Below, piece after piece: positions 52 to 23,114 of a stretch of DNA of 23,579 nt. Made by a program: the position numbers and the translations under genes. The notes beneath the pieces are model-generated. The model did no database searches. It saw nothing but the letters and a program-made list of their open reading frames with translations, and was not told the DNA's origin. The DNA comes from a virus: positions 1-23,579 of the IMG/VR virus record IMGVR_UViG_3300009504_000039; one strand, 5' to 3'. The stretch's first letter is position 1. Every line of letters begins with the position of its first letter.

Positions 52-327
52 ATGCCAGACAATCTAGACGGTCTACTGGCGCCAGCCGAACTAGCGAGCG
101 AGCTCGGCGTCTCGGTGGCGACGCTGCGCCAATGGCGGTGGCGCGGCGAGGGCCCCGCACACATCAAGCTGAACAGCCGCGTGATCCGGTACAAGGCCGA
201 CGACGTCGACGCCTGGCTAGCGCGTCGGGATCGCGTCGAGGACAGCGACGTGATCATGCTGGCCAAGCTGCGCAAGGCTGACGAACTCGAGTCCGATGGC
301 TCGAAGCAGGTGGTGCGCTTTGGGTGA
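52..327 (+). CDS. Small MerR/AlpA-type helix-turn-helix protein
   Basis: This 91-residue protein is a probable DNA-binding regulator. Residues 8-57 match the compact winged-helix fold of AlpA/excisionase and MerR-N proteins: LLAPAELASELGVSVATLRQ is the helix-turn-helix, followed by W-R-GEGP, then the wing R-VIRY and the closing helix DDVDAWLARR. The C-terminal 30 residues are charged and not recognised. The gene is the first of the head operon and its end lies close to or overlaps the protease start. Family members act as excisionases, repressors or packaging factors, and the sequence alone does not say which. No integrase is visible, so an excisionase role is unsupported. A palindrome at 65-75 inside its first codons could allow autoregulation. 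Fold confidence is high, role confidence low. Confidence 0.8.
   Translation: MPDNLDGLLAPAELASELGVSVATLRQWRWRGEGPAHIKLNSRVIRYKADDVDAWLARRDRVEDSDVIMLAKLRKADELESDGSKQVVRFG
65..75. promoter_or_regulatory. TAGAC-G-GTCTA palindrome, possible operator
   Basis: A perfect 5+1+5 palindrome sits in codons 5-8 of the HTH gene. The half-site AGAC also occurs at 31-34, 47-50 and 57-60, on both sides of the start codon. Clustered half-sites around the start of a DNA-binding protein gene are typical of an autoregulatory operator, but short repeats like these can arise by chance. Confidence 0.25.
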
Positions 328-337
328 AGATGTCCGG

Positions 338-2328: not shown

Positions 2329-3309
2329 ATGCGACGCATCAATCTCGATTCATTCCTCAAGCAAGTCGGCGCGCGGTTCCGCGAGAACTACGACGACAAC
2401 GGGGCGATTCTCGCCACCAACCTCACCCGCGCCACCGTCCGGGAGCTGTTCGCGTACAAGGTGCTCGACACCCCGTGGGCCAACGGAGACCTGATCTCGC
2501 TCGACACCTCGCCGCCCGAGGGCGCGCAGTCGGTCGACTGGTACATGATCAAGGATGTTGCTCCGGCGGGCTCGTCCTTCGTCGCTCCCGGCGGCCCATT
2601 CCCCCGGGTCGACATTGCCGGCGAGGGGCACAACAACCGGGCGCACACGATGGGTTGCTCGTTCGGCTTTGAACTCTCGGAGCTGCAAGGCTGGGAGCTT
2701 CAAGGGCTCGGCGGCAGTCTGCCCGAAGGCAAGGCCCGCGCGGCTCGTCGCTTCCACGACGCCGACCTCAACGACGCCATCATGCGCGGTGTCGCGGCGC
2801 TCGGTATCTCCGGGATGATCAACATGCCCGGCTCGCTCCAACTGCAAGCCGGCGTCGTCGCGGGCACGACCGCCGATTGGCTCGACCCGTTGGTGACCCC
2901 CAACCAGATCACCGACACCTTCGAGGCGCTCTACAGCGCAATCTACGACGGCAGCAACGGCAAATTGAAGCCCAACACCTGCGTGATCCCGTCCAAGGTC
3001 GCCACGCGGCTCCGTCGGCAGAACAGCCTCGCCAACGGCGACTCCATCATCACGTGGCTTAGGGAGACCTTCCCCGAGATCACCAAGTGGGAGATCGATC
3101 CGCGCATGAACACCGCCGGCCTCGGCGGCACGAAGGCGATGCTGCTCTACAACCGCGACAAGGACATGGTGTGGGCGTTGATGCCCCAGCTGCTTCGGCC
3201 GCTCCCCGTTTACATCAAGCACCAGAACACCGAGCAGGCTTTTCAGTCGCGCTACGCCGGCATCGCCTGCCCGTACCCCACCTCTGTCGCTCTGCTCTCG
3301 GGAGTCTGA
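2329..3309 (+). CDS. Major capsid protein, DUF2184-like HK97 fold
   Basis: This 326-residue protein is the best major capsid candidate: length, position after protease and cement genes, and a DUF2184-like layout. It has an N-terminal helical arm, GCSFGFELSELQGWELQG followed by the helix ARAARRFHDADLNDAIMRGVAALGI (E-loop to spine-helix pattern), then LGISGMINMPG, a P-domain helix around ITDTFEALYSAIYDGSNG, NTCVIPSKVATRL, and a C-terminal beta segment ending QSRYAGIACPYPTSVALLSG. It would assemble the icosahedral shell. A TAGGAG motif at 2313-2318 lies upstream of ATG 2329, slightly distant but good. No N-terminal delta domain is obvious, consistent with the scaffold being supplied by the upstream gene. 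Confidence 0.85.
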   Translation: MRRINLDSFLKQVGARFRENYDDNGAILATNLTRATVRELFAYKVLDTPWANGDLISLDTSPPEGAQSVDWYMIKDVAPAGSSFVAPGGPFPRVDIAGEGHNNRAHTMGCSFGFELSELQGWELQGLGGSLPEGKARAARRFHDADLNDAIMRGVAALGISGMINMPGSLQLQAGVVAGTTADWLDPLVTPNQITDTFEALYSAIYDGSNGKLKPNTCVIPSKVATRLRRQNSLANGDSIITWLRETFPEITKWEIDPRMNTAGLGGTKAMLLYNRDKDMVWALMPQLLRPLPVYIKHQNTEQAFQSRYAGIACPYPTSVALLSGV

Positions 3310-6445: not shown

Positions 6446-7266
6446 TTGACCACGTAATCCGACTCGACCTCCTGCAGTCCGTGCTCGGGGAGCTGGTCGA
6501 GACCGGCACCGGCGAGACCGTGCTCTGGTGCTACGGCGAACCTCCGTTCGACGGCGGCGACCTGATCAGCCTGCGCGTCCTCTCGGGCCCGACCGCAGAG
6601 CAGACCTTCGCCCGCGGCTACAACCTCCAGCCGCCGAGCGAGATCGTGCTCACCATCGACGCGACCCCCGGGAAGCTCGCGCGGATGGTCGTCAACTCGA
6701 TCCCGTACCAGCACGAGGTTGCGGCCCTCGACACCCCGGCCACGGTCCGCGCGGCGTTGATTGCCGCCGTCCAAACCGACCCCGAAGCAGCCTTCACAGC
6801 GGTCGCCCACGCGGACGCGGACAAGCTCCGGCTGGTCCCCGCGGCCCTCGGGTCAATCTGGGCCGCGCGCATCACCGGGCCGCTCACCGCCGACGTGACG
6901 CTGGCCGATGCGCTGGTCAAGGTGACCAAGTCGCGGCGCCGCGTCGTCGTGAACGTGCAGGCGTACAGCAAGACCAAGACCGTTCGGGGAGGGGCCGCGA
7001 AGATGACAGCTCGGGCGCTCGCGGTGCTGGAGTCTCCCGCCGCCGCGCAAGCCCTCCAAGAGTCAACGATCGGAATCTACGGCATGTCGAGCCCCGTGGA
7101 TTTGAGCGCCATCGCTGGGGCTCATTGGGAGACCCGTAGCGCGTTCGACCTGATCCTCAACATCCAAGCCGTGACGATCACACCCGTGTATCAGATCGGA
7201 CAACTGGCGGGTGGCTTCACTGGCCATACCGCGGCACACTCATTCAACGTGGAGCTAGCCTCATGA
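6442..7266 (+). CDS. Tail/neck terminator protein, LIC_12616-like, with inserted domain
   Basis: The start is TTG 6442 (TTGA overlap with the preceding stop), supported by GAGGA at 6431-6435 with 6 nt spacing; no ATG or GTG lies near. The 274-residue product opens with a helix (IRLDLLQSVLGELVETG) and a strand, and ends with SSPVDLSAIAGAHWETRSAFDLILNIQAV, which fits the phage neck terminator LIC_12616-type family (W-E-x-R-x-x-x-D signature). Residues ~66-162 form an extra module (EIVLTIDATPGKLARMVVN, TVRAALIAAVQ, DKLRLVPAALGSIWAARITG) of the same general type as in the cement and DUF4054 proteins. Its role is to cap the tail tube for joining to the head. It sits directly before the sheath gene, as expected. 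Confidence 0.65.
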   Translation: MIDHVIRLDLLQSVLGELVETGTGETVLWCYGEPPFDGGDLISLRVLSGPTAEQTFARGYNLQPPSEIVLTIDATPGKLARMVVNSIPYQHEVAALDTPATVRAALIAAVQTDPEAAFTAVAHADADKLRLVPAALGSIWAARITGPLTADVTLADALVKVTKSRRRVVVNVQAYSKTKTVRGGAAKMTARALAVLESPAAAQALQESTIGIYGMSSPVDLSAIAGAHWETRSAFDLILNIQAVTITPVYQIGQLAGGFTGHTAAHSFNVELAS

Positions 7267-8801
7267 CAATCTCAGCTTTCCATTTCGTAGACGTTTCGGT
7301 TCAAGTCGCTGGGGCCACGGTCGACCGTTTCGGCTTCGGCAACTACATGCACGTTGCCGAGCATAACATCACCACGTCGCGGCAGGACGGGCCCTTCGCG
7401 TCGCTCGCTGACGTGGCCGCCGCTGGCTTCACCGAAGGCGCAGCGCCGACGGTGTACTGGGCCGCCGCCGCTGCGTTCTCGGTCGACAACGCGGTCAATC
7501 AGCTCTGGGTGGGCCGCAAGATTCCCGCCGCCGGTGGACCGCTCGATCGGGTCTGGCAGTTCGACGACAGCACCGAGACCCTCGTCAACGTGACCGCCGC
7601 GGCCAACAGCGCCGGAGCTGGGGACTGGGTCTTGTTCCCCGCCAGCGAGGCCGTCGGCGACGCCGTGCGAATCGGCAGCCGGACCCCCTTCAACTCGGTT
7701 ACGTTCTCGTCCGCGGGTGGTACGGCGGGCGTCGACGGTGGCGCGTTGGAGCTGGCTCACGAGGCTTGGGACGGCAGCGCCTGGGTCCCGCTCGCGGGCG
7801 TGGTCGACGGGACCAGCGACTTCACCGAGGTTGCGGGCGCTGGACAAGTCCTGTCTTTCACGGCCCCGCCCAACTGGGCCCCGGCGATTCTCGACGGCGA
7901 GCCCGAGGCGCTCTACTACATCCAGATTCGGATCGTCGCGGGCGACTACTCGACCAACCCGATCTACTCCCAAGCCGTCATCACCGGCGACGCCTCGTGG
8001 ACGGCGGCGCTCTCGGCCATCGAGGCGACCGTCGGGGCGGGCTCGGATGACTGGTACGGATTCACCATCGAATCGCGGGTCAAGGCTGACCTGCTGGCCG
8101 TGGGCGCGTGGACGGAACCCAGGTTCAAGCGCTACATCCCGCAGTCCGCCGACGTGGACTTCCGAGTCGGAACCGCCGGCAATGTTGGGCTCGAGCTAAA
8201 GGCGCTCGGCTACTGGCGGACCATGGGCCCGCTGTACCACGCGGTGTCGGATGGTGCGGCGAACGGCTATCTCGACGCGGCCATGGCCTCGCGCGGCTTC
8301 GGGTTCAATCTCGACGCGCCCAACGGTCACGACAACTGGATGTTTCAGTCGTTGCAGGGCATCGCGCCCGACCCCGTGACCAACGCCCAAGCCCAGGCAA
8401 TCTGGGCCGCCAACGGCAACGTCTACGCATCAACGCTCGGCTCGTCGTTCGTGTCGAAGGGAACGACCGCCGCGGGCGAGCCCTACTTCATGGATATCAT
8501 CTCGGCGGTCGACTGGTTCAAGCGCCGCGCCGAAGAGGACGTGATTGCGCACTTCGTGGCCAACCGCCCCAGCTACGACAACGCTGGCATCCAAGGTGTC
8601 GCCGCCGTCGTCAAGCAGCGGCTCGATATTGGCGTTCGCGTCGGGGCGTTCAGCGGCGACCACCCGCGCACGGTCATCGTCCCCGACGTGAGCGAGGTGT
8701 CGACCGCCGACAAGCAAGCGCGCCTGCTCACGCTGGAGTGCTCGGCGGTGTTCCGCGGCAAGATCCAAAAGCTCGACTTCACTCTCGCCGTCCAGTTCTG
8801 A
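7263..8801 (+). CDS. Contractile tail sheath protein
   Basis: This 512-residue protein is the tail sheath (DUF3383-type). The N-terminus FHFVDVSVQVAGATVDRFGF, with later FASLADVAAAGF, is typical of the family, and residues ~243-512 carry the conserved core: DDWYGFTIESR, AWTEPRFKRYIPQ, YWRTMGPLYH, AMASRGFGFN, the insertion helix AQAQAIWAANGNVY, MDIISAVDWFKRRAEEDVIAHFV, and a C-terminal strand KIQKLDFTLAVQF for inter-subunit handshakes. Residues ~95-242 are an added domain containing AHEAWDGSAWVPLAGVVDGT, APPNWAPAILDG and ALYYIQIRIVAGDYS, a beta module seen in phage virion proteins. It starts in an ATGA overlap and is followed by the tube gene. The presence of a sheath makes this a myovirus-type tail. 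Confidence 0.88.
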   Translation: MTISAFHFVDVSVQVAGATVDRFGFGNYMHVAEHNITTSRQDGPFASLADVAAAGFTEGAAPTVYWAAAAAFSVDNAVNQLWVGRKIPAAGGPLDRVWQFDDSTETLVNVTAAANSAGAGDWVLFPASEAVGDAVRIGSRTPFNSVTFSSAGGTAGVDGGALELAHEAWDGSAWVPLAGVVDGTSDFTEVAGAGQVLSFTAPPNWAPAILDGEPEALYYIQIRIVAGDYSTNPIYSQAVITGDASWTAALSAIEATVGAGSDDWYGFTIESRVKADLLAVGAWTEPRFKRYIPQSADVDFRVGTAGNVGLELKALGYWRTMGPLYHAVSDGAANGYLDAAMASRGFGFNLDAPNGHDNWMFQSLQGIAPDPVTNAQAQAIWAANGNVYASTLGSSFVSKGTTAAGEPYFMDIISAVDWFKRRAEEDVIAHFVANRPSYDNAGIQGVAAVVKQRLDIGVRVGAFSGDHPRTVIVPDVSEVSTADKQARLLTLECSAVFRGKIQKLDFTLAVQF

Positions 8802-8820
8802 TCCGAGGAGACGCAACGCT

Positions 8821-9261
8821 ATGGCATACGTACACACATTTGGAACCACCGAAGTCCTCTGGGGCGCTCCCGGCCTGTCTCTCGATTTGAAGCCGGGCCT
8901 CGCCCAAGGGGTCCCGATTTCCTACTCGTTCAGCGTTCCTCGTGCGACTTACCGGAGCACGGCCAAGGGCCGCAAGATCAAGATCACCAACGAGGACCGG
9001 AGCGGCGTGCTCACGGTCACCTTCGAGACCGCCAGCGAGGTCTTCGACGCCGTGATGGCGGCCATCCCTTTGGAGCTGGTCGGCCTGTTCACCGTCTACG
9101 AGGCGGCGACGAAGCGACGCTTTCTCTTCACGAACGCCGATATTGTGACCGACCCTGACGGCAGTTTCGGCCCCGATGCACCGACCTTCGACGTGCAGTG
9201 GCATTTCGAGAGCCTCACCGTCCAGCCCGCCGTGGCCCCGGCGAACATCATCGGAGTCTAA
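8821..9261 (+). CDS. Tail tube protein
   Basis: A 146-residue protein directly after the sheath, with GAGGAG at 8806-8811 upstream of ATG 8821. It contains the tube signature KIKITNEDRSGVLTVTFETASEVFDAVMAAI (residues ~56-87), where the N-E-D-R-S-G-V/T block is common to phage tube proteins with a DUF3277-like fold, followed by LVGLFTVYEAATKRRFLFTNADIV and a closing strand DVQWHFESLTVQP. It would polymerise as hexameric rings inside the sheath. Length and position match the family. Confidence 0.82.
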   Translation: MAYVHTFGTTEVLWGAPGLSLDLKPGLAQGVPISYSFSVPRATYRSTAKGRKIKITNEDRSGVLTVTFETASEVFDAVMAAIPLELVGLFTVYEAATKRRFLFTNADIVTDPDGSFGPDAPTFDVQWHFESLTVQPAVAPANIIGV

Positions 9262-9265
9262 GACC

Positions 9266-9691
9266 ATGCTCAAGCCTCACCAGTATTCAATCGGCGGCCT
9301 GAACTACGCGACCACGCCGCTCCCGGCCGGCGAGGCGTTGGTCTTCATGCCCAGGATCATCCGGCTGCTCGGCAAGGAGCTCACGGCTCTCTGGCTCATG
9401 TCGGACGAAAAGGCCAGCGAGGGCGCTCGCGGGATCGAAGCGCTGCTTGAGGACCGCGAGGTGATGGCCCGCGCAATCTCGACGATCTCCGAGAACGCCG
9501 TCAACGAAGAGGGCGGACTCGGCATCCTGCGCGAGATCATGCGATACACCGTGGTCGAACTGGTCGCCGGTGAAGTGCCAGTCAAGGTGCTCGACGTGTT
9601 CGACAACCACTTCGCGGGCGATCCGCTGTCCATGATGAGCGTGGCCGCCCACGCCCTGCGCTCGTCTTTTACCCGTCCCTCGGCCGGCTAA
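9266..9691 (+). CDS. Tail assembly chaperone, short (zero-frame) product
   Basis: This 141-residue helical protein lies between the tail tube and tape-measure genes, the invariant place of tail assembly chaperones (lambda G/GT, T5- and Mu-type analogues). It opens with KPHQYSIGGLNYATTPLPAGEALVFMPRI, a strand-rich entry, then helices including GARGIEALLEDREVMARAISTISE and GLGILREIMRYTVVELVAG, and ends SFTRPSAG at a TAA. Such chaperones coat the tape measure during tube polymerisation and are absent from the virion. The start is ATG 9266, five nt after the tube gene. The following open frame lacks a usable start, so this product is probably also extended by -1 frameshifting. Confidence 0.72.
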   Translation: MLKPHQYSIGGLNYATTPLPAGEALVFMPRIIRLLGKELTALWLMSDEKASEGARGIEALLEDREVMARAISTISENAVNEEGGLGILREIMRYTVVELVAGEVPVKVLDVFDNHFAGDPLSMMSVAAHALRSSFTRPSAG

Positions 9692-10002
9692 CGGCTCCGC
9701 TCCCGGAGTACGCCGTCCACAAGAGCGCGAGCGGAGCTCTTCACAAAGGTCTCTCCCCGATCACGATCCACCCGCTGATCTATTCGGCGTGCTCTACGAA
9801 AGACGGCATCAACGTGGCCACCTACGAAGCCCTTGCAACTCGACTCGACCTGAACGCGCTGGCGGACCTTGTCGAGATGCAGCACGTGCGGGATTCGTGG
9901 ATGCACGCTGAGCTGTTCGAGGCTGAACGGCGGCGCGAGATGGCGGCCGACCAGCGAGCGCAGCAAGCCTCGCCACCGCGCAAGTCTAGGGGGCGGCGAT
10001 GA
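9667..10002 (+). CDS. Tail assembly chaperone extension reached by -1 frameshift (T-like part)
   Basis: The -1 frame is open from 9574 (TGA at 9571-9573) to TGA 10000-10002. It contains no ATG, GTG or TTG before GTG 9814, yet it reads as protein well before that: GRLTAPLPEYAVHKSASGAL, then PITIHPLIYSACSTKDGINVATYEALATRLDLNALADLVEMQHV, ending in a charged tail. The natural reading is a fusion to the preceding chaperone. The best slip site is the T4 run at 9667-9670, where codon TTT (9668-9670) can re-pair with TTT at 9667-9669. That would give about 245 residues. A perfect X XXY YYZ heptamer is not present. A simple gene caller would report only the GTG 9814 fragment of 62 residues. The tape measure overlaps its stop. 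Confidence 0.6.
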   Translation, partial: FYPSLGRLTAPLPEYAVHKSASGALHKGLSPITIHPLIYSACSTKDGINVATYEALATRLDLNALADLVEMQHVRDSWMHAELFEAERRREMAADQRAQQASPPRKSRGRR

Positions 10003-11753
10003 GCACGACGATCGCAGACCTGCTCGTCAAAATCGGGGTGTCCGTCGACGGGGCTAAGAACGCTCAAAAAGAGGTCGAGGGCTCGACCAAGGCGAGTGAG
10101 GACACCGACACCAAAGGCAGTCCCAAGCTCAAAGCCTTTGCGAAAGTTGCGAAGGCAGCCTTCGGCGGTGTCGCCGTGGCGGCTACGGCTGCGTCGGGTG
10201 CCGTGCTCGCGGCCGGCGGCGTCATCTTCGGGTTCGTCTCCAAGACGACCCAGGACATGGACGACATTGCGAAGGGCTTCAAAAAAGCCGGGCTCGCGTC
10301 GTCCGAAGAATTCCAACGCATCTCACACGCAGCGAAGCTCAGCGGCACGGAGGTTGGCGGCGTGGCTAAGGGCTTGAAAGCCCTCAACGTCCAGATGCTC
10401 GACGCGAGCCGGGGCGGCGGCGCAGCGTTCAAACAGAGCCTCACCGACGTGGGGCTGGGCCTTGCTGACCTGGAGGGTAAGTCCGCGACCGAGCAGCTAG
10501 GCATCATCGCCGACGCGCTCAACAAGGTCGAGGACGAGTCGATGCGCTCGGTGCTGGCGAGCAAGCTGCTCGGCAAGTCCGGCAGCGAGATGGCCGATCT
10601 ACTGCGCGCCGGCTCGCGCGGCATCAACGAGATGGCCGGCTCGCTGGAGAACGTCTTCACCGACGACCAGCTGAGCCAGGCCGAAGAGTTTCAGAACCAG
10701 CTCACCAACGTCAAGGCGCAACTCGGGCAGGCCGCGGGCGAACTAGCCATCGCACTAACCCCGGCGATTGAAGCCGGCGTGAAGGTGTTCCAGGACTTCA
10801 TCCGCGAGAACGACGAACTAATCAAGCAGCAGCTACCTCGCTTGTTGACGATGGTCGCCGAGAACGCGGTCAAGCTCCTGCCGATCGCGCTCAAGGTCGT
10901 GGGCGTCATCGCCGACCTCGTAGAAGAAGCCACGCCGCTCGTTGACCGGTTCCTAATCTTCACGACGGGCCAGCTCGAACGGGGACTGAACGGCACCAAG
11001 TCGGCGCTCTCGGTGCTGCTGCCGATCGTTTTGAAGCTCGCCAACGCGGTGCTTGATACGGTCGAGGGGATCGAGAAGGCATACAACTGGGCCGTCACGC
11101 TGGGGTCGATCGAAAAGAACCAAGTCCCGCGCGGGGCTCCCGGGTTCCTCGGCGACAAGAAAGACCCGAAGACTGGCGAAACTCCGAACGAGGTACGCGC
11201 CCGCGAAGCCAAAGAGAAGAAGTCGAAGCAGGATGAAGTCACCAAGGCGCGCGCGGCCGAAGAAGCGGCGCTGGTGACTCGCAAGGTGCGCATCGTCAGC
11301 GACAAGCTGGCCAGCTCGACCAAGGGCGGCCGCAAGTGGTCGGACGCTGACGAAGCGCTCGCGTCCATGCACGGGCTGACGCGCGACGACATTCGCAACG
11401 CCGCTGGCACGACCGCACCGAAGCGCGGCGGCGGAGGCAGGGCCAAGCCCGTCGACGCCCCGACCAAGTCAGCCAGCTTCGGAGACTTCCGGGACGTGCT
11501 CGCCGTGTACATGGGCCGGTCGCCGGAAGAAGCGATGCAAGGGCTCTCGACGCTCGAACAAGGCAAGATGCGCGAGGACCATCGGCCCGAGACGAGCATC
11601 AACATCACGAACAACACGACCAACAACTACGACGTGACGATCCCGGTCAACGGGGCTCGCAACGCGCAAGAGACGGCAATCGCGGTGCGGGATGTACTGG
11701 CGGCCACCTACAAAGACGCGGCGGCCAAGATGCCGCAGAACATCGTGCGCTAA
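9999..11753 (+). CDS. Tail tape measure protein
   Basis: A 584-residue protein starting in an ATGA overlap. It begins with IADLLVKIGVSVDGAKNAQKEVEG, typical of tape measures, then an Ala/Gly-rich hydrophobic stretch (~50-78), then long helices including FQRISHAAKLSGTEVGGVAKGLKALN and a region of the TP901-type pattern (LSQAEEFQNQLTNVKAQLGQAAGELAIALTPAIEA). A second hydrophobic helical part (~280-380) follows. The C-terminal third is charged (KEKKSKQDEVTKARAAEEAAL) and ends with an Asn/Thr-rich patch. It fixes tail length. At 584 residues the tail would be short, of the order of 90 nm by the usual ~0.15 nm per residue rule. No peptidoglycan hydrolase domain is visible. Confidence 0.85.
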   Translation: MSTTIADLLVKIGVSVDGAKNAQKEVEGSTKASEDTDTKGSPKLKAFAKVAKAAFGGVAVAATAASGAVLAAGGVIFGFVSKTTQDMDDIAKGFKKAGLASSEEFQRISHAAKLSGTEVGGVAKGLKALNVQMLDASRGGGAAFKQSLTDVGLGLADLEGKSATEQLGIIADALNKVEDESMRSVLASKLLGKSGSEMADLLRAGSRGINEMAGSLENVFTDDQLSQAEEFQNQLTNVKAQLGQAAGELAIALTPAIEAGVKVFQDFIRENDELIKQQLPRLLTMVAENAVKLLPIALKVVGVIADLVEEATPLVDRFLIFTTGQLERGLNGTKSALSVLLPIVLKLANAVLDTVEGIEKAYNWAVTLGSIEKNQVPRGAPGFLGDKKDPKTGETPNEVRAREAKEKKSKQDEVTKARAAEEAALVTRKVRIVSDKLASSTKGGRKWSDADEALASMHGLTRDDIRNAAGTTAPKRGGGGRAKPVDAPTKSASFGDFRDVLAVYMGRSPEEAMQGLSTLEQGKMREDHRPETSINITNNTTNNYDVTIPVNGARNAQETAIAVRDVLAATYKDAAAKMPQNIVR

Positions 11754-14738: not shown

Positions 14739-15998
14739 ATGGCATTCGAGCTCACAACCAACGGCCTCACCCTCCAGACCCGCGAAGAGATCGTCGCGGG
14801 GCTCCTCGTTCGCCTGCAAGCGAAGTTCGGCAACACGCTCAACACGTCGGTCATGGAGGCCGTGTCCAGCGAGTTCGCCGAGATTCAGGGCGAGCTGCTC
14901 GCGGTCTACCAGCAGCTCGTGCTTCGGGCGGTCCAGTCCTTCGATCCGAATGCGGCGACGGGGGTGTTGCTCGACCAGCGTTGCGCGCTCACGGGGACCA
15001 TCCGCAAGGCAGCGCGCGCGTCCACCGTGCGGGGCGTGCTGACGGCCACCGGCGCGTGCGATGTGCCAGACGGGACCATCTTCCGCAACGACACCTACGG
15101 GACGCTGTGGGAGACGTACGGCGGCCCCTACGTCTTCGCGGGGGCGGGCGACTTGGACGCGACCGTGCGCGCGCTGGAGACGGGGCGCCTGGTCTCGCAG
15201 GCCGGCGACGCGTGGGAGCCGACTGTGTCGATCGCCAACCTGACCGGCTTCACCAACCCGACCGAGGACGCCAAGCTTGGCGCCGACCGAGAGACCGACC
15301 CGGCGCTTCGCGTCCGCCGAGTCCTCGAGCTTTTCTCGAGCGGCAACGGTCCGCTCGCCGCCATCACGGCCGCCGTCTCCCGCTCGGAAGCGGCCGAGGC
15401 CATCCGGTCAGTGCGGACCTACCACAACCCGGCGACCAGCCCGTTCGACAGCGACGGCATCCGGTGGAAGGCGACCAACACGGTCGTCGACCTGTTCACC
15501 TCGCCGCCGAGCGCCGAGGTCCAGCAAGCGCTGTGGGATGCCATCTTCTCGGCGACCGGCGGCGGTGGGGATCCGTGGGCAACCGACGCGGGCTACCACG
15601 GCACCGTCACCGATATCGAGGGCGGCGTGCACCCGGTCGGGTTCGACATTGTGGCCGAGGTCGACGTGTGGCTCACGGTCGAGATCGAGACGGGCGGAGA
15701 CGGGCCCGTCGTGCCGATCGACCCGGTGACGATGGCCGAGATCGTACGCTCGCGGTGCGTCACCGAGGCTCAAAGCAAGCGCAGCAACCCGGGCGAGGAC
15801 TTCCGCACGCTGACTTACAGCGGCATCGTCTCGCAGCTCGTCAACGCGGGCGAGCTGTCGGGCCTGGCTTCGGTCGCCGTGCGCGTGGGCACCAGCTCGC
15901 CGCCGGCCATCACGTCGCTGGTCCCGATCGGCATCCGCGAGAAGATCAACCTGTCGACCGCGCGCACGGTCGTCGTCATCAACGGGATCGACTACTAA
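14739..15998 (+). CDS. Baseplate J-like protein
   Basis: This 419-residue protein matches baseplate J-like (gp47/gpJ) proteins. The N-terminal helix TLQTREEIVAGLLVRLQAKFG, the segment AVQSFDPNAATGVLLDQRCALTG, GVLTATGACDVPDGTIFRNDTYGTLWET, VSIANLTGFTNPTEDAKLGADRETDPALRVRR, and the C-terminal NPGEDFRTLTYSGIVSQLVNAGELSGLASVAVRV are the expected blocks. It forms the wedge core with the gp25-like neighbour. The end TAA overlaps the next ATG (TAATG at 15996-16000). Confidence 0.86.
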   Translation: MAFELTTNGLTLQTREEIVAGLLVRLQAKFGNTLNTSVMEAVSSEFAEIQGELLAVYQQLVLRAVQSFDPNAATGVLLDQRCALTGTIRKAARASTVRGVLTATGACDVPDGTIFRNDTYGTLWETYGGPYVFAGAGDLDATVRALETGRLVSQAGDAWEPTVSIANLTGFTNPTEDAKLGADRETDPALRVRRVLELFSSGNGPLAAITAAVSRSEAAEAIRSVRTYHNPATSPFDSDGIRWKATNTVVDLFTSPPSAEVQQALWDAIFSATGGGGDPWATDAGYHGTVTDIEGGVHPVGFDIVAEVDVWLTVEIETGGDGPVVPIDPVTMAEIVRSRCVTEAQSKRSNPGEDFRTLTYSGIVSQLVNAGELSGLASVAVRVGTSSPPAITSLVPIGIREKINLSTARTVVVINGIDY

Positions 15999-16678
15999 TG
16001 GCGTTCTGGGGCGAGGGTTGGGGCGAAGACTTCGAGTGGGGTCTGTCTGCGGTCGGCGAGGAGTGGGCTTGCGACCTAACCCAAGCACGGCTGCTCCACT
16101 GGCACCCCGAGGCCAGCAACATCCGCAACTGGTTCTGTGCCTACGGGGAGCACGTCGGCTCTGACATCGACACACTCGTCGCACTCCCGCACGCGTTCGC
16201 TGTCGAGTTCGCCGTAGGCGCGCAGCTCGACGTGCTCGGGTCCATCGTCGGGCTGCCCCGATCGGGCGCGACCGACACCCGCTACCGCACGCTGTTGCGG
16301 ATTCAAATTCGGCTGCTGCTCTCGGCCGCGCGCGAGGACGCGAATTGGACGGGGACAACGAACAACCTGCTCGGCATCGTGCGCGAGTTCATCGGCCCGG
16401 GGCCTGCTCCGATCGGCCTGGTCAACCTCCCGCCCAAGTCGTTCTTGCTGACGATCCCGGATATCACGGACACTAGCGATCTCCACGTCCTAATCAGCTT
16501 TCTGACCAAAGCAGTGTATTCTGAAACGGTGGGCTACGTGCTATTCGCAACTGCCACCGAAGGCTCCGTTTGGGGTAGCGAGTCCGTCGCTGTACCCGGC
16601 GCGGGTATCTGGGGCAGCGCGTCCGTTGTGGTGCCCGGTGCCGCGACTTGGGGCTACACCGTAACGATCGGAGTCTAA
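15998..16678 (+). CDS. DUF2612 baseplate/tail protein I-like, with W-G repeat tail
   Basis: A 226-residue protein starting at ATG 15998. Residues ~25-190 fit DUF2612, the tail-protein-I/gp53-like wedge component: VEFAVGAQLDVLGSIVGLPRSGATDTRYRTLLRIQIRLLLSA (the L-D-x-x-G-x-x-V-G-x-x-R and D-x-x-Y-R signature), then NNLLGIVREFIG, and LVNLPPKSFLLTIPDI. After residue ~190 there is a repetitive tail of 13-residue units beginning x-W-G-S-x-S-V-x-V-P-G-A, two full copies and a partial third, which is not part of the family and may anchor the fibre. A reading start further upstream in the same frame (14318) is an artefact through other genes. Confidence 0.75.
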   Translation: MAFWGEGWGEDFEWGLSAVGEEWACDLTQARLLHWHPEASNIRNWFCAYGEHVGSDIDTLVALPHAFAVEFAVGAQLDVLGSIVGLPRSGATDTRYRTLLRIQIRLLLSAAREDANWTGTTNNLLGIVREFIGPGPAPIGLVNLPPKSFLLTIPDITDTSDLHVLISFLTKAVYSETVGYVLFATATEGSVWGSESVAVPGAGIWGSASVVVPGAATWGYTVTIGV

Positions 16679-16681
16679 GCC

Positions 16682-17821
16682 ATGGCAAAACCCGTCACCA
16701 CATTCACTCACGCGACCGACGCCAACTTCACGAGCGGGCCGGCGATCGGCAAGCCGACCAAGATTGCGGCCCCTACCCCGCAAGGCATCATCCCCGGCAC
16801 AGGCATCGTGCCCGAAATGCTCAACTGGCTGCTTCACGTCACGGGCAACTGGGTGGGCTGGCTCGCCGCCGGCAAGTCGACCGCAGCCGAAGACGCGCAC
16901 ATTGTCGAGACCGACGACGACGGCCGCGGGCGAGTAGCCGGTGTGGTCCTGGGCTCGACCGGCGCGGGCTTCCCTGCGATCACGGCCAACGAAAACTCCG
17001 GCTCCGCGGCGTCGACAATCTCGACGACCAACAACAGCAACGGCTTCGCTTTGCTGGGGTCAGCGTCCGGCTCCGCCGCGGCCATCCGCGGTGTGTCGGG
17101 CGGGTCTGGTGCCGCGTTGGAGGGCGTGTCGACGGGGCCGGGCCACGGCCTGAACGTCTCGGGCACCGCCCATGTCTCCGGCACGGTCACGCTCGGCGGC
17201 GTGCTCGCGGTCACCGGGATCGTAAGCCCGCTGGCGGGGATCAATCTGGGCACGCAGACTATGTCCGGCAGCGCCGGTTCGCTCGTCGACGTCACGACCA
17301 CAAAGGTCACCCAACTCGACTTCAACAACTCCGGCTTGGGCCTGGCTGCGGCGACGGGACGCATCCGGTGGAACGAGACTTTTTTCTCGTTCCTCGACGG
17401 CGTCGGGCAGGCCCGCACCTTTGAGGAGCCGGTCCGCGGCTACGCTGCGTCGCTCGTCACGCTCAACGCAATCGCCGACACAGGCGCCGCCGCGACCCGT
17501 CGCATCCGCCACAACGAAGAGGTGTGGATCGAGGTCTCGGCCCGCGTCGAGTGCAGCGCTTCGCCGACGACCTTGGCCATGCGCATCGGCGCCACGGGCC
17601 CGCTCGGCTACGACGAGCCGATGGTCACGAGCTACCGGATCGTCGCCACCGACGTGGGGTTTGCGGTCTCCACTGTCTACCGGTGGAAGCCGACAGACTC
17701 ATGGCCCGCCGCGTCCGACATTCAGTCGTACGCGATCAAACTGCGTCTGGGCATCAACTCCGGGACGCTCACCGCGTCCCGGTGCTCAATCAAGGTGTCG
17801 AGTGACTTCTTCATTCCGTGA
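16682..17821 (+). CDS. Tail fibre / receptor-binding protein
   Basis: A 379-residue protein beginning MAKPVTTFTHATDANFTSG. The first ~70 residues are the likely baseplate anchor. Residues ~95-215 form a Gly/Ser/Ala-rich beta-repeat region (GVVLGSTGAGFPAITANENSG, GFALLGSASGSAAAIRGVSGG, ALEGVSTGPGHGLNVSG, HVSGTVTLGGVLAVTG) typical of trimeric fibre shafts. The C-terminal ~130 residues look like a globular beta-sandwich receptor domain (VWIEVSARVECSASPTTLAMRIG, AVSTVYRWKPTDSW, SRCSIKVSSDFF). Position at the end of the baseplate cluster supports the call. No dedicated fibre chaperone follows: the next gene is on the other strand and its end overlaps this stop by 11 bp. Confidence 0.8.
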   Translation: MAKPVTTFTHATDANFTSGPAIGKPTKIAAPTPQGIIPGTGIVPEMLNWLLHVTGNWVGWLAAGKSTAAEDAHIVETDDDGRGRVAGVVLGSTGAGFPAITANENSGSAASTISTTNNSNGFALLGSASGSAAAIRGVSGGSGAALEGVSTGPGHGLNVSGTAHVSGTVTLGGVLAVTGIVSPLAGINLGTQTMSGSAGSLVDVTTTKVTQLDFNNSGLGLAAATGRIRWNETFFSFLDGVGQARTFEEPVRGYAASLVTLNAIADTGAAATRRIRHNEEVWIEVSARVECSASPTTLAMRIGATGPLGYDEPMVTSYRIVATDVGFAVSTVYRWKPTDSWPAASDIQSYAIKLRLGINSGTLTASRCSIKVSSDFFIP

Positions 17822-18194
17822 CCTTGGCGACCATCGCGTTGCCCACGTCCAGCCACTCGGCGCCCGACACGGCGCAGGCCGGACCGACGGCAACGGCGAA
17901 GTCGCCCTCGACGCGGAAGCACCCAACGCGGCCGTGTCCGTCGACGACCACGCAAAGGTCAACGTCGGGCTCGCGCTCGCACTCCCACACGTCGGCCTGG
18001 TCGACTTCGGTGAGCGCGACGAGATCGTCGGCTGCCACGACACGCGACCACGCCGGGCTGTCATCCCACCGGGCCTCGCACTCAGTCGTGCTGCATCGAA
18101 GCTCGACGAGCTCGCGCCGACTGCCGTCGGCTGTGGCGGTGCAAGCCGAGGCGAAGAGAACAACAGCGGAGAGAGCCAGGGTGCGGATCTGCAT
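17811..18194 (-). CDS. Small cysteine-rich lipoprotein (moron candidate)
   Basis: This is the only convincing minus-strand gene. From ATG 18194 (127 aa) it opens with a lipoprotein signal: n-region MQIR, hydrophobic TLALSAVVLFASA and lipobox F-A-S-A-C with the lipidated Cys at 18. The +2 residue is Thr, so outer-membrane sorting is likely in a Gram-negative host. Six further cysteines follow at 34, 39, 72, 81, 92 and 107, suggesting disulfides in the periplasm. Codon usage in this frame is strongly GC3-biased like that of true genes. An upstream start at 18224 would lengthen the n-region. It lies alone, convergent with the tail fibre (11 bp overlap) and divergent from the terminase. Candidate roles are superinfection exclusion or a lysogenic conversion factor. 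An Rz1-type spanin seems unlikely with no Rz partner. I do not recognise the family. Confidence 0.75.
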   Translation of the reverse strand: MQIRTLALSAVVLFASACTATADGSRRELVELRCSTTECEARWDDSPAWSRVVAADDLVALTEVDQADVWECEREPDVDLCVVVDGHGRVGCFRVEGDFAVAVGPACAVSGAEWLDVGNAMVAKVTE

Positions 18195-18243
18195 CGGCGC
18201 CAGGCTAGCAGCCCCGCGGAGCATGCGCCTACGGATAAGGAAA
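18195..18243. promoter_or_regulatory. Divergent intergenic region between lipoprotein and terminase genes
   Basis: Only about 50 bp separate two divergent starts, so at least the minus-strand lipoprotein must be transcribed from here or from within the terminase start. The segment 18231-18267 is a distinct AT-rich pocket in a GC-rich background. I could not identify a convincing -35/-10 pair on either strand. The region also holds AAGGA at 18237-18241 ahead of ATG 18244. Confidence 0.3.
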
Positions 18244-18783
18244 ATGCAGCGTAAACACCGATATAAGCGCGCCGCTCGCAAGGGTGCAAAAGCCGCGCCG
18301 CGCGAGCACGTCCTGGAAGTGCCCGCCGAGGCCTCGCCTGTGGTGTTCGACCCCAACGAGGGGATCACCCAGGCGCTCGTCGCCGCGTTCGCGGAGCTGC
18401 TTCGCCTTGGGCTGCGCAAGACGGTCGTCTGCGCTCGGCTAAAGATCCCGCTCGAGACCTACCGGCTGTGGGCCCGCGAGGGCAGCACGGCGCTGCGTCT
18501 TTACGCCTCCGACCGGTCCGATGCCCTTGGGGTGCACGGCGAGTTCGTCTTGGCCATCGACGCCGCCGAGGCCGACGCTCACGCGCGATGCGTCGAGATC
18601 GTGATGGGGTCGGAGGACCCAGACCTCGTCTTCAAGTTCATGATCAAGCGCTGGCCCAAGCACTACCTGCATAACGGGCGCAAGGTCATCGACGACGACG
18701 ACGGCACCGAAGAAGAGGCCGACGCCGAGACCGAGTCGTTGATCATCGACCGACTGAAAGCCATGTTCAAGGACGATTCCTGA
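18244..18783 (+). CDS. terS: Terminase small subunit
   Basis: The 179-residue product starts at ATG 18244 or possibly ATG 18223 (186 aa); both have short SD spacing. A very basic N-terminus (residues 1-20) precedes helices with a helix-turn-helix at ~48-80: LLRLGLRKTVVCARLKIPLETYRLWAREG, the DNA-recognition module of small terminases. The middle has FVLAIDAAEADAHARCVEIVMG and DPDLVFKFMIKRWPKHYL, an oligomerisation-type pattern common in TerS proteins with an R/K-W-P-x-x-Y/W block. The C-terminus is acidic (VIDDDDGTEEEADAETESLI). It sits immediately before the large terminase. It recognises phage DNA and recruits the packaging motor. Confidence 0.8.
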   Translation: MQRKHRYKRAARKGAKAAPREHVLEVPAEASPVVFDPNEGITQALVAAFAELLRLGLRKTVVCARLKIPLETYRLWAREGSTALRLYASDRSDALGVHGEFVLAIDAAEADAHARCVEIVMGSEDPDLVFKFMIKRWPKHYLHNGRKVIDDDDGTEEEADAETESLIIDRLKAMFKDDS

Positions 18784-18784
18784 C

Positions 18785-20158
18785 GTGGCCATGCTCCCGC
18801 GGATCGGCGAGATTGCGCAGCGTGCAGCCGCGGAGGCTGGCGACTCGCGATCGCCCCGGGAGCTGATCGCCGCCATGTTCGCTTCCATGTCACCGTACGA
18901 GCGCCGCGCGGTGCTCGATGACTGGGCGATGTGGTCGCTGCCCTACCAGCGCATCCCGCCGGGCGACTGGCGACGATGGGCCATGATCGGGGGCCGCGGG
19001 ATCGGCAAGAGTTGGACTGCCAGCAAGACGGTCCACGAGGTCGCCAAGGACGTGGGTTCGCTCGGCGGGGGCATCATCGCGATCGTGGGACGGACCCACA
19101 CGGACGTGCGCGAAACGAACGTGGAGGCGCGTGCGACGGGCATCCTCGCCGCGGCGCCCCGCGGGTTCCTGCCGCGCTGGAAGCCGGGGCCGGGGATCCT
19201 CGAATGGCCCAACGGCGCCCGCGGGCGCGTCTTCTCTGCCGACGGGGAGTCTGCCCAGAGCATCCGCGGGTCTAACATCGCCTTTGCGATCGGCGACGAG
19301 GTGGCCGCGTGGAAGAAAGGCGAAGAGACGTGGTGGCACCTGCTCGAGTTCGCCACGCGCGTCGGTCGAGCGCAGCTGATGATGACGACCACGCCGCGGC
19401 CGCTAAAGTGGCTCAAGAAGGCCGTCGACGACGCGGACACGGTGCTTACTGGGGCGAGCACGTTCGACAACCCGTTCTTGACCGAGAAAGCCATCAAGGT
19501 CTACCGCAACGCGTTCGAGGGCGCGGCGATCGGCGAGCAGGAGCTGCGCGGGTTGTTTCTCGGCATGGTCGAGGGTGCGCTGCTCAAGCAGTTCGAGTTC
19601 ATCAGCGACCACCGGATCGAGCTCGCTGACCTGCCACCGATGGCTCGAGTGATCGTGTCGGTGGATCCGGCGGTGACGGCTCACCGCAGGAGCGACAAGA
19701 CCGGCATCGCGGCGCTCGGAATCGACAGCGCCGGCGAGGGCTACGTGCTCGAGGACGCCACGGACAAGTACGATATCAGCACGGGCGAGTGGGCGGAGGT
19801 CGCCATCTCGCTCTACCGCAAGTACCAGGCCGATCGCGTCGTCGCCGAGGTCAACCGCGGCGGCGACATGGTCGAGGCCGGCCTGCGCGCGGTCGACCGG
19901 AACATCCCGTTCGCCAGCGTCCGGGCCACGCGAAGCAAATTCACCCGAGGCGAGCCAGTGGCCACGCTCTACGAGCGAGGCAAGGTCCATCACGTCGGCA
20001 TCTTCCCGGAGCTCGAGGCCGAGCTTACGACATGGATCCCCGGCGACAGCCAGAGCCCCAACCGGCTGGACTCGGTCGTCTGGGGGATCACCTACTTGAT
20101 GCTGTCGGAGGACAGCCCAATCCGCACCACCGCAGACGGCCCCGGGGCCTACGCTTGA
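18785..20158 (+). CDS. terL: Terminase large subunit (ATPase-nuclease)
   Basis: This 457-residue protein carries all large-terminase signatures. Walker A is GGRGIGKS (69-76). Walker B is AFAIGDE with D171/E172. A coupling motif TTTP follows (201-204). The RNase H-like nuclease domain has D294 (SVDPA), E355/D361 (AEVNRGGDMV) and D429 (PNRLDSVVWGI). It powers DNA translocation through the portal and cuts the concatemer. The start is GTG 18785, one base after the terS stop, with AAGGA at 18769-18773 (11 nt away); ATG 18791 is an alternative. Length is within the family's normal range of about 400-550 residues. Confidence 0.92.
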   Translation: MAMLPRIGEIAQRAAAEAGDSRSPRELIAAMFASMSPYERRAVLDDWAMWSLPYQRIPPGDWRRWAMIGGRGIGKSWTASKTVHEVAKDVGSLGGGIIAIVGRTHTDVRETNVEARATGILAAAPRGFLPRWKPGPGILEWPNGARGRVFSADGESAQSIRGSNIAFAIGDEVAAWKKGEETWWHLLEFATRVGRAQLMMTTTPRPLKWLKKAVDDADTVLTGASTFDNPFLTEKAIKVYRNAFEGAAIGEQELRGLFLGMVEGALLKQFEFISDHRIELADLPPMARVIVSVDPAVTAHRRSDKTGIAALGIDSAGEGYVLEDATDKYDISTGEWAEVAISLYRKYQADRVVAEVNRGGDMVEAGLRAVDRNIPFASVRATRSKFTRGEPVATLYERGKVHHVGIFPELEAELTTWIPGDSQSPNRLDSVVWGITYLMLSEDSPIRTTADGPGAYA

Positions 20159-20168
20159 CGAGCTAGCC

Positions 20169-22058
20169 ATGAACGACCCAACACCACAAGCCCCTCCCAT
20201 CGTGCACGTCGACGGCTACGTCGACTTTCTCACCGCGAGCGGGCCACAGCTCGGACAGCAGCCGCGGGCTTACTACGGCGCTGAACGTGAGCTGGGGACC
20301 GAGGAACTGTCGAACGCCTACGAGAACGACGCGGTCGCAGCTCGCATCATCGACCAGGTCGTCGACGACGCGACCCGGGCCAAGTGGGATCTCGTGGGGC
20401 TGGACCAGGCGTACGACTGGCAGTCGATTCGCTCGCGCATGGATGACCTCCGCGCAGTCCCCAAGATTGCCGAGGCGTGGCGCTGGGCTCGGCTCCAACG
20501 AGGGTCGATTCTCGTGCTCGCCGTCGACGACGGCAAGAGCTTCGACAAGCCGCTCGACCTCGCCACCGTGCGAGAGCTTCGCGGGCTGACGGTCGTCGAC
20601 GCCACACGCGTCACGGCCGGCACGTTCGACATGGGGCGCGGCTCCGACTGGCGACGCGACCCCGAGTTCTACGTCATCGCGGACCCTGCGAAACCCGACG
20701 AAGCGAAGGTCCACCGCTCGCGCGTCATCCGGTTCGACGGGGTCGTCGTGCCGCCGGACCGCATGACCTACAACGGGCTGTGGGGACCATCCGTGCTCTC
20801 GCGGTGCTGGCGTTCGCTAGGCCAGTACAGCAACACGATGAAGAACGCCGAGGCCATCATGAAGCGGATTTCGGTGATGGTGCTCAAGATGAACGGCTGG
20901 AAGCAAGCCATGTGCGGGAGCGAGGCCGACAAGGACAAGGCGCGCGCCGGGCTGCAAGCGCTCTGGTGGGGAATCGACAACCTGAACCTGCTAGCGATCG
21001 ACAAGCTTGACGACTTCGGCGAGGTCAAGCGCTCGATCGAGGGCGTGAAGTCGATGATGGAAGCTGCCGTCGACGACCTCGTGATGACCAGCGGGTGCTC
21101 GCGCCAGATCATCACCGGCACGCAGACGAGCACGGGACTGAACAGCGACACGAAGGGCGAGCGCACGGCCTGGCACAATCACGCGATCGTCCAGCGCAAT
21201 CACTACGTCGACCCGGCGCTGTCCCGCATCCTGGAGATCGAGTTCGCCGCGCGGCGGAACCGGGGCGAGCAAGTCCCCGACGAATGGACGTTCACTTGGG
21301 AGCCGCTCGAACAAGAAGCCGACGCGGACCTGGCCGACCGCGCCGTCAAGTGGGGGGGCTTCGTCGCGCTGATGCTCGACAAGAACATCATCGACACCGC
21401 CACGGCTCGCCAACTGCTCATCGACCAGGGCATCGTCGACAAGACCGAGCTGGGGAAGCTCGTCCCGCCCGCGGCTGTCAACGGCGGCGGGGAGTCGGTC
21501 GGCTCCCCGCTGGAGATCTTGGCCAAGGTCGCGGCCGGCGAGCTGCCGGCTGCGTCGGCTATCTGGCTCATCTCGAAGGCGTGCGTGCTCTCGGGCGCGA
21601 CGCTGTCCGACGCCGAGCAGGCAGCCATGCACGCGGCCGTCTACGCTGCGGCCGAGCACGCCAAGAGCAGCGGCACACAAGGGCTGGCCGCGGCATCGCC
21701 CCCGGCGAACCCCGACCCCGTGGCGCTGGACGAAGTCGGCGAGGTCGAGCCCGTCGAACCCGACCCGCTCGACATGTTGCTGGCCGAGATCCCCGGCGAC
21801 CTCATGAGCCCCGGGGCCATCGTCGAAGAGATCAAGGCCCGCATGGGTCTCGAGGTCTCGACGCGGCTCGTTCACAACCTCGCCAAGAAGTACGGCGCTC
21901 GCCGGGGCAAGGTCGGCGGGGACATGGGCTACAGCGCGAGGGACATCAAGTTCGCGCTCGCCAAAGAGAACGGGCTCGAGCTGCCAGCCGAAGATCCGCA
22001 GGGGGCAGACGCGGGGAGCGCGGCGCGCAAGGTAGTAAAAAAAGAAATGACCGCTTGA
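20169..22058 (+). CDS. Portal protein, DUF1073-like, with C-terminal extension
   Basis: The 629-residue protein follows TerL by 10 nt. Residues ~1-400 match the DUF1073/Mu gp29-type portal layout: LSNAYENDAVAARIIDQVVDDATRAKWDLVG, KIAEAWRWARLQRGSILVLAVDD, EFYVIADP, VHRSRVIRFDGVVVP, WGPSVLSRCWRSLGQYSNTMKNAEAIMKRISVMVLKM, and the block SRQIITGTQTSTGLNSDTKGERTAWHNHAIVQRNHYVDPALSRILEIEFA. It forms the dodecameric DNA gateway. The C-terminal ~90 residues add a Pro/Glu linker and a helical part (545-605, SPGAIVEEIKARMGLEVSTRLVHNLAKKYGARR, then GYSARDIKFALAKENG) that looks like a helix-turn-helix and is not typical of the family. The end has an A7 run at 22037-22043. Confidence 0.85.
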   Translation: MNDPTPQAPPIVHVDGYVDFLTASGPQLGQQPRAYYGAERELGTEELSNAYENDAVAARIIDQVVDDATRAKWDLVGLDQAYDWQSIRSRMDDLRAVPKIAEAWRWARLQRGSILVLAVDDGKSFDKPLDLATVRELRGLTVVDATRVTAGTFDMGRGSDWRRDPEFYVIADPAKPDEAKVHRSRVIRFDGVVVPPDRMTYNGLWGPSVLSRCWRSLGQYSNTMKNAEAIMKRISVMVLKMNGWKQAMCGSEADKDKARAGLQALWWGIDNLNLLAIDKLDDFGEVKRSIEGVKSMMEAAVDDLVMTSGCSRQIITGTQTSTGLNSDTKGERTAWHNHAIVQRNHYVDPALSRILEIEFAARRNRGEQVPDEWTFTWEPLEQEADADLADRAVKWGGFVALMLDKNIIDTATARQLLIDQGIVDKTELGKLVPPAAVNGGGESVGSPLEILAKVAAGELPAASAIWLISKACVLSGATLSDAEQAAMHAAVYAAAEHAKSSGTQGLAAASPPANPDPVALDEVGEVEPVEPDPLDMLLAEIPGDLMSPGAIVEEIKARMGLEVSTRLVHNLAKKYGARRGKVGGDMGYSARDIKFALAKENGLELPAEDPQGADAGSAARKVVKKEMTA

Positions 22059-22083: not shown

Positions 22084-22144
22084 GTCTGAGTCGGGGCGAT
22101 GACCGCCCCCGCAAGCCCCCGAACCCAAGGACCACGACCATGAC
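22061..22144 (+). repeat. Leader element, copy 1 (mini-ORF, hairpin, start context)
   Basis: This is one of two copies of a 5' leader that ends in the start codon of a gene. Both contain CAACGGCAAAC (22061-22071 here) and an identical 34-bp core (22077-22110 here), followed by GCAAGCCC, an A-G-G-A-type ribosome binding site (AAGGA 22127-22131) and CACGACCATGACC. The core includes a six-codon reading frame (22082-22102, product MSESGR) whose TGA falls in the loop of a GGGGCG/CGCCCC stem (22093-22109). I do not recognise the element. It may be a translational control leader or a recombination scar left by gene duplication. Confidence 0.8.
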
Positions 22145-22559
22145 CACCACGACCGATACCCGCGACATCATCATCTCCACCGACGCTGACGAGGCCCTGC
22201 TCGTCGCCTGGTACGGCGAGTACGCTGAGCCCACCGCCTACTGGCCGACCGGAGACCGCGCCGAGTTCGAGTCCGCCCTACGCGAGTGGATTCGAGAGGA
22301 CACCCAGATCTGGGGATGGACCAACGAGGAGGACGCCAGCGACGAGGACGATCTGGTCCGCGTCGAGCGGTACATGTCCAGCATCAGCATCGAGCTGCCG
22401 CGCATCGACGACGAGCAGATCGAGGCGCTTCGACGCGAGGCCGGCCAGGCCGGCGACAGCGAGCTCGTCGCCGCGTGCGACGAGGCGCTCGAGGACGGGC
22501 AAGGCAGCCCGGCGTACGTCACCTGTCGAGACGCGATCCTCTCCGCGCGCGGGGCCTAG
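22140..22559 (+). CDS. Small acidic unknown protein
   Basis: The 139-residue product starts at ATG 22140 with AAGGA 8 nt upstream. It is acidic, with an N-terminal TTTTDTRDIIIS stretch, a Trp/Tyr-rich middle (LVAWYGEYAEPTAYWPTGD, REWIREDTQIWGW) and an acidic Asp/Glu patch. The C-terminal 45 residues (QIEALRREAGQAGDSELVAACDEALEDG, then AYVTCRDAILSARGA) resemble a short module common in small phage and plasmid proteins, with the pattern L-R-x-E-A-x-x-A-G-D...C-x-x-A-L. The role is unknown. It is the first of three small genes between the portal and the right end. Confidence 0.7.
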   Translation: MTTTTDTRDIIISTDADEALLVAWYGEYAEPTAYWPTGDRAEFESALREWIREDTQIWGWTNEEDASDEDDLVRVERYMSSISIELPRIDDEQIEALRREAGQAGDSELVAACDEALEDGQGSPAYVTCRDAILSARGA

Positions 22560-22646: not shown

Positions 22647-22726
22647 CAACGGCAAACAGCCACCCATCATGTCTGAGTCGGGGCGATGACCGCCCCCCGC
22701 AAGCCCGAAGGACCCACGACCATGAC
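22647..22726 (+). repeat. Leader element, copy 2
   Basis: This is the second copy of the leader: CAACGGCAAAC (22647-22657), the identical 34-bp core (22664-22697), GCAAGCCC, GAAGGA (22707-22712) and the same CACGACCATGACC at the start codon (22722). The MSESGR mini-ORF here is 22669-22689. Relative to copy 1 there is one extra base before the core, one extra C after it, and a shorter spacer before the ribosome binding site. The region between the tandem hairpins and this copy (22611-22646) shows nothing else. Confidence 0.8.
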
Positions 22727-23114
22727 CGACATCATACGCAAAACGATCACCACGACCGCCGACGAACAGCGCCCGCGCGGGCTCACATCGGCCGCGTGTC
22801 GGGTTGAGGTGGTGCTCAAGGAAGGGGACTCGGGGCCGTGGTCCGTCAGGCTGGTGGACATCTGGGACCCGCTTGAACCGGCTACTGGATGGCACGACGT
22901 GGCGACCACAGCAGACGAGCGCGGCCGGCCGCGGTGGGTCGAGATCTCGCCTGACGGGGTGCGCCGGAACCTTCGCATCCACGACGAGGATGCGAAGTCG
23001 GCGACGAGCACGACGATCCATTACTCGGACCCCTTGCCGAAGTGGGTCGCCCCGGCCGTGCTCGAAATAATCCGGGGTCGTTTCGATCGTGAAGGGGTCG
23101 AGGTGGCATCGTGA
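22722..23114 (+). CDS. Small unknown protein
   Basis: The 130-residue product is started at ATG 22722, because the duplicated leader places the same start context there and GAAGGA lies 9 nt upstream. The in-frame ATG at 22686 lies inside the leader and has no counterpart in frame with the 22140 gene. The protein begins MTDIIRKTITTTADEQRP and is beta-rich (CRVEVVLKEGDSGPWSVRLVDIWD, HDVATTADERGRPRWVEISPDGVRRNLRI), with a C-terminal helix PKWVAPAVLEIIRGRFD. No family is recognised. The end overlaps the next gene (GTGA at 23111). Confidence 0.65.
   Translation: MTDIIRKTITTTADEQRPRGLTSAACRVEVVLKEGDSGPWSVRLVDIWDPLEPATGWHDVATTADERGRPRWVEISPDGVRRNLRIHDEDAKSATSTTIHYSDPLPKWVAPAVLEIIRGRFDREGVEVAS

Follow-up and report, generated by a model that had tools for sequence, protein, structure and literature searches.

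The window, by which we mean the whole stretch of DNA that was analysed, is a complete IMG/VR viral record of 23,579 bases, in which no terminal repeat of at least 10 bases was found. It carries the virion module of a contractile-tailed phage, with a sheath gene present, and the genes of this module that could be named all lie on the plus strand. Scans with the TerL, portal, baseplate J, fibre and tape measure proteins retrieved no close relative of the phage; TerL found distant relatives only (about 43% identity at best), and tblastn showed no other window protein in common with them. Leucine is encoded mostly by CTC, and no integrase was seen in the window. Between the tail fibre and terminase genes lies a minus-strand gene for a putative lipoprotein, which is our subject here. 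The genes and features of the window are:

296-1531, plus strand: head protease
2329-3309, plus strand: major head protein
between the head and fibre genes listed, plus strand: neck protein, Dit-like protein and gp25-type baseplate protein
7263-8801, plus strand: sheath (phrog_205)
9999-11753, plus strand: tape measure
14739-15998, plus strand: baseplate J, 5' of the baseplate-like gene and the fibre
15998-16678, plus strand: baseplate-like protein, directly before the fibre gene
16682-17821, plus strand: tail fibre, 379 aa, convergent partner of the lipoprotein gene, assigned from its position after the baseplate genes and from a match of its C-terminal half to L095:1560-2660
17811-17821: 11-bp tail-to-tail overlap of the fibre and lipoprotein genes (4 bp in L095)
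17811-18194, minus strand: lipoprotein gene, 127-aa precursor, supported by codon use, signal peptide, cysteines and the homologue L095:1159-1563
18195-18224, minus strand: possible 10-residue N-terminal extension of the lipoprotein, from an alternative in-frame ATG at 18224
18195-18243: divergent gap between the lipoprotein and TerS genes, 49 bp
18244-18783, plus strand: terminase small subunit (TerS; phrog_4102), divergent neighbour of the lipoprotein gene
18785-20158, plus strand: terminase large subunit (TerL), context
20169-22058, plus strand: portal protein (PF06381, E 1.6e-46), context

As the sequence-only reading had stated, the open reading frame at 17811-18194 translates on the minus strand to 127 aa and overlaps the plus-strand fibre frame, which ends at 17821, by exactly 11 bp. 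Its codon score is 0.193, as compared to 0.13-0.365 for the phage's own genes, and exceeds that of all five other frames. The codon-aligned plus frame opposite it also scores positively (0.09) and locally does as well or wins, so that codon use taken alone provides only moderate evidence for a minus-strand gene. At the phage's cysteine frequency, at least seven cysteines in 127 aa have a probability of 2e-5, a figure to be read with the caveat that some antisense frames are richer in cysteine through composition. The gene could be a spurious antisense frame if the true gene were a plus-strand extension of TerS from GTG 17818, given that the TerS frame is open over 17818-18783, that this GTG and the fibre stop overlap in the sequence GTGA, and that the second, codon-aligned plus frame equals the minus frame in local score. 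However, the TerS frame has a codon score of -0.18 (0.19 for the minus strand), the codon-position GC of the extension (0.53/0.75/0.83, versus 0.73/0.51/0.82 for the lipoprotein frame) is not gene-like, and a good ribosome site precedes ATG 18244. Moreover, the minus-strand protein is conserved: between the window lipoprotein and the homologue described below, dN/dS is about 0.27 (Nei-Gojobori; dS 1.86, dN 0.50), and by this comparison the minus-strand reading is under purifying selection. Together, the homologue and the selection on it lead us to regard an extension from GTG 17818 as excluded for practical purposes. TerS probably starts at ATG 18244, with AAGGA in front, and the divergent gap is therefore 49 bp. 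This gap (18195-18243) contains no sigma-70-like promoter, although the sigma-70 consensus may not be the host's, and no terminator for the lipoprotein gene was found.

The encoded product has the lipobox and six further cysteines that had been read from the sequence, namely Cys18 in the lipobox and Cys34, Cys39, Cys72, Cys81, Cys92 and Cys107. Its N-terminal features are:

18144-18194, minus strand: signal peptide MQIRTLALSAVVLFASA, residues 1-17, recognised from the hydropathy of the h-region
18141-18143, minus strand: Cys18, the putative lipidated residue (FASA|C), aligned with Cys21 in the LAGC lipobox of the homologue

The N-terminal hydropathy of 2.35 is the highest among 836 candidate starts with a lipobox pattern in an open reading frame, the best unrelated start reaching 1.39. 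Judging by the window alone, a signal peptidase I site (ATA|D, residues 20-23) is a possible alternative, and the window lipobox FASAC is non-canonical in having Ala at -3; the homologue has the canonical LAGC. We infer from this alignment that Cys18 is lipidated. The protein carries a signal peptide with a lipobox cysteine, and its lipidation is putative. The mature part is acidic (pI ~4.2), and the protein contains 2.4% proline and no C-terminal membrane segment. Structure prediction had been suggested as a check: AlphaFold runs on single sequences of the precursor and the mature form gave beta-rich models, but with pLDDT values of 43 and 46 these are unreliable.

Searches for relatives bore out the earlier statement that the protein belongs to no recognised family, as Pfam, PHROG, NCBIfam and PADLOC profiles gave no match to it. 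No relatives were found in the PDB with either the single sequence or a two-sequence profile, and an IMG/VR scan with the lipoprotein as a single protein returned no match. Searches of phages and plasmids by tblastn, with the window protein and with its homologue, yielded no matches or chance matches, and a search of 17 genomes from the phylum of G001 was uninformative. A scan of genome contigs with the lipoprotein produced one match, antisense inside an rpsA gene, which we rejected as due to chance. Among 67 terminase-related loci inspected for a lipoprotein 5' of TerL, there were three weak candidates and no convincing one. A search of 2.9 million viral contigs with degenerate DNA encoding the motif C-V-x-V-D-G-x-G-x-V-x-C-F retrieved exactly one locus, in IMGVR_UViG_3300010413_000214. 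We refer to this locus as L095 and to the whole record of the same contig as G007. The relevant features of L095 are:

L095:1159-1563: lipoprotein homologue, 134 aa, identified by its 46-47% identity to the window protein
L095:1560-2660: fibre gene, tail to tail with the L095 lipoprotein gene, 4-bp overlap

The two lipoproteins are 46-47% identical over their full length (BLASTP E 1e-36 for the pair; tblastn 7e-32), and all seven cysteines are aligned. Against family profiles, the homologue gave weak matches only, largely over the signal peptide. By these comparisons, the two lipoproteins constitute a new, unnamed family.

The resemblance between the two loci extends into the neighbouring gene, where one further feature of the window can be delimited:

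17174-17821, plus strand: fibre C-terminal module common to L095 (37% identity over 225 aa; window fibre residues 165-374)

PHROG tail-fibre families recognise the L095 fibre via its N-terminus. The N-terminal halves of the two fibres align poorly, and the C-terminal module of the window fibre has no family or phage match of its own. Among the other window proteins queried against L095, only portal (24%) and protease (36%) matched, both distantly, and the TerL, sheath, capsid and baseplate J proteins of the window had no significant match in the L095/G007 sequence searched. Therefore, what the two phages have in common is the distal module of the fibre together with the lipoprotein. The association with the tail fibre proposed by the sequence-only reading is strengthened by this result, since the tail-to-tail pair recurs in an otherwise different phage. 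The gene had also been called single and isolated. No second convincing minus-strand gene interrupts the plus-strand structural series, but this one travels with the C-terminal module of the fibre. Both phages have the pair upstream of the terminase, but its orientation relative to the terminase is opposite in the two. The fibre of the window follows the structural genes and the lipoprotein gene alone is reversed, whereas in G007 the lipoprotein gene is on the strand of a RecD2-type helicase and a methylase and the fibre gene alone is reversed. We conclude that the two genes of the cassette were inverted or relocated together with respect to the genes around them. No convincing long inverted repeats, such as might form an inversion switch, flank the cassette. 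On the evidence of gene order in these two phages (n=2), the lipoprotein is one half of a fibre/lipoprotein cassette and not an isolated moron.

We next considered what such a lipoprotein might do. Because it is predicted to be exported, is rich in cysteine, and travels with the presumed receptor-binding part of the fibre, its probable target is the receptor on the cell surface to which the fibre binds, and it may, for instance, block re-infection. By analogy with T5 Llp or Rtp45, we give receptor-directed superinfection exclusion a probability of about 0.5. The mature protein of ~110 residues would form a compact, mainly beta domain with up to three disulfides. After synthesis in the infected cell (or lysogen), export and lipid anchoring, it would bind the surface receptor used by its partner fibre, or else a partner of this receptor in the membrane, and phages carrying the same fibre would then be kept from adsorbing or from delivering their DNA. 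It might also prevent wasteful adsorption of progeny to debris. A broader proposal, which we advance tentatively and hold to be somewhat less probable, is that contractile phages possess a family of fibre-matched exclusion lipoproteins with up to three disulfides, exchanged and inverted with the receptor-binding half of the fibre as a cassette of receptor binder and receptor blocker.

Known exclusion lipoproteins offer several parallels. T5 Llp jams FhuA from the periplasm (PMC9586334). According to the T5 record AY543070 and its annotation, llp encodes a small exported lipoprotein, as is predicted for the window protein; it adjoins the receptor-binding gene oad, is encoded on the strand opposite to it, and has the large terminase gene nearby. 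The window gene likewise adjoins a putative receptor-binding tail gene, and does so again in L095. There are differences: llp and oad are divergent (head to head) and the fibre and lipoprotein genes are convergent, Llp has 77 aa and the window protein 127 aa, and the window phage is contractile and its receptor-directed exclusion putative. A comparison of the sequences found no homology to Llp. In Rtp45, a small lipoprotein that blocks LptD, there is a disulfide and a beta hairpin (PMC12685063), and the receptor-binding loci described for small siphophages, downstream of gpJ, come with cognate exclusion proteins (PMC8594841). Rtp45 and the exclusion lipoproteins of small siphophages (Drexlerviridae and others) resemble the window protein in being linked to a receptor-binding locus; in this comparison, made by description only, the window protein differs in being about twice as large and in having six cysteines.

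Several points weigh against exclusion. In addition to the missing similarity to Llp, the known exclusion lipoproteins belong mostly to siphophages with protein receptors, and the sheath of the window phage is contractile. LPS often serves as the receptor of contractile phages, and jamming is less well established for a receptor of this type. A single homologue was found, so that the linkage rests on two phages, and the site at the terminase held no convincing lipoprotein in any of the 67 loci. The divergent gap also lacks a promoter that fits the sigma-70 consensus, with the proviso about the host given above.

The main alternative, though a less likely one, is a generic lysogenic-conversion (moron) lipoprotein that alters the host surface for the benefit of the host, with a merely physical linkage to the fibre. 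Lambda Bor provides the precedent, as bor, which encodes a small outer-membrane protein, stands alone on the minus strand beside the late genes and precedes the terminase on the circular map. This topology is very similar to that of the window and means that a conversion gene can also take the form of a single minus-strand gene close to the terminase; the absence of a family match is also typical for morons. However, bor has no link to a fibre gene, and recurrence with the C-terminal module of the fibre in a different phage would not be predicted for an unrelated moron. The comparison revealed no similarity to Bor and no Pfam family for the window lipoprotein. Expression in a lysogen, which the sequence-only reading had raised, found no support, as neither an integrase in the window nor a recognisable promoter for the gene was seen. 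Clearly less probable is another envelope function in the infection cycle of the fibre, such as protection of the envelope, inhibition of a surface enzyme, or release of progeny by preventing virions from sticking to the receptor; such roles would suit an exported, fibre-linked protein and overlap mechanistically with receptor blocking. A lysis role as an o-spanin or u-spanin, homology to which had been named in advance as a counter-indication, is very improbable: the product is a small phage lipoprotein, as are Rz1-type o-spanins, but it is Cys-rich rather than proline-rich, lacks the C-terminal membrane segment, is encoded by a gene that stands alone on the opposite strand, where no i-spanin partner was seen nearby on either strand, and has no profile similarity to Rz1.

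Receptor-directed exclusion, if true, would mean that lipoprotein-mediated exclusion is not confined to enterobacterial siphophages and occurs also in contractile phages of a different, high-GC host, and fibre tip and blocker would move as a single cassette. If fibre and lipoprotein are a matched pair, the lipoprotein would be a genetic pointer to the fibre receptor in phages of uncultured hosts, as well as a ready-made receptor blocker.

Other genes of the two phages gave rise to minor observations. At 52-327 (plus strand), the window encodes an excisionase/MerR-like HTH_17 protein (PF12728, E 5e-12); its gene overlaps and directly precedes that of the head protease, an odd site for a DNA-binding protein. 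Two genes after the portal, at 22140-22559 and 22686-23114 (plus strand), have no convincing family match, the latter showing a marginal match to a type II restriction enzyme (E 0.015). Within the final 250 bases of the window (plus strand), a sigma-70-like TTGACC-17-TACTGAT, read by eye, points off the contig end. In L095, a gene at 8953-9807 (plus strand) carries an XRE-type regulator domain (HTH_31) and lies between a terminase-like frame at 8370-9116 and the protease; by eye, this terminase-like frame resembles part of the L095 TerL and may be a partial duplication. L095:5368-7725 (plus strand), also present in G007, is a 785-aa open reading frame that combines portal PF06381, an excisionase-type HTH_17 and a sigma-54-activator AAA+ domain with its lid in one frame, a candidate portal/transcription-activator fusion that would be very unusual if real. 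The window portal (20169-22058) has a long C-terminal extension (200 aa) past its PF06381 match, a feature to which the extended L095 portal may be a parallel.
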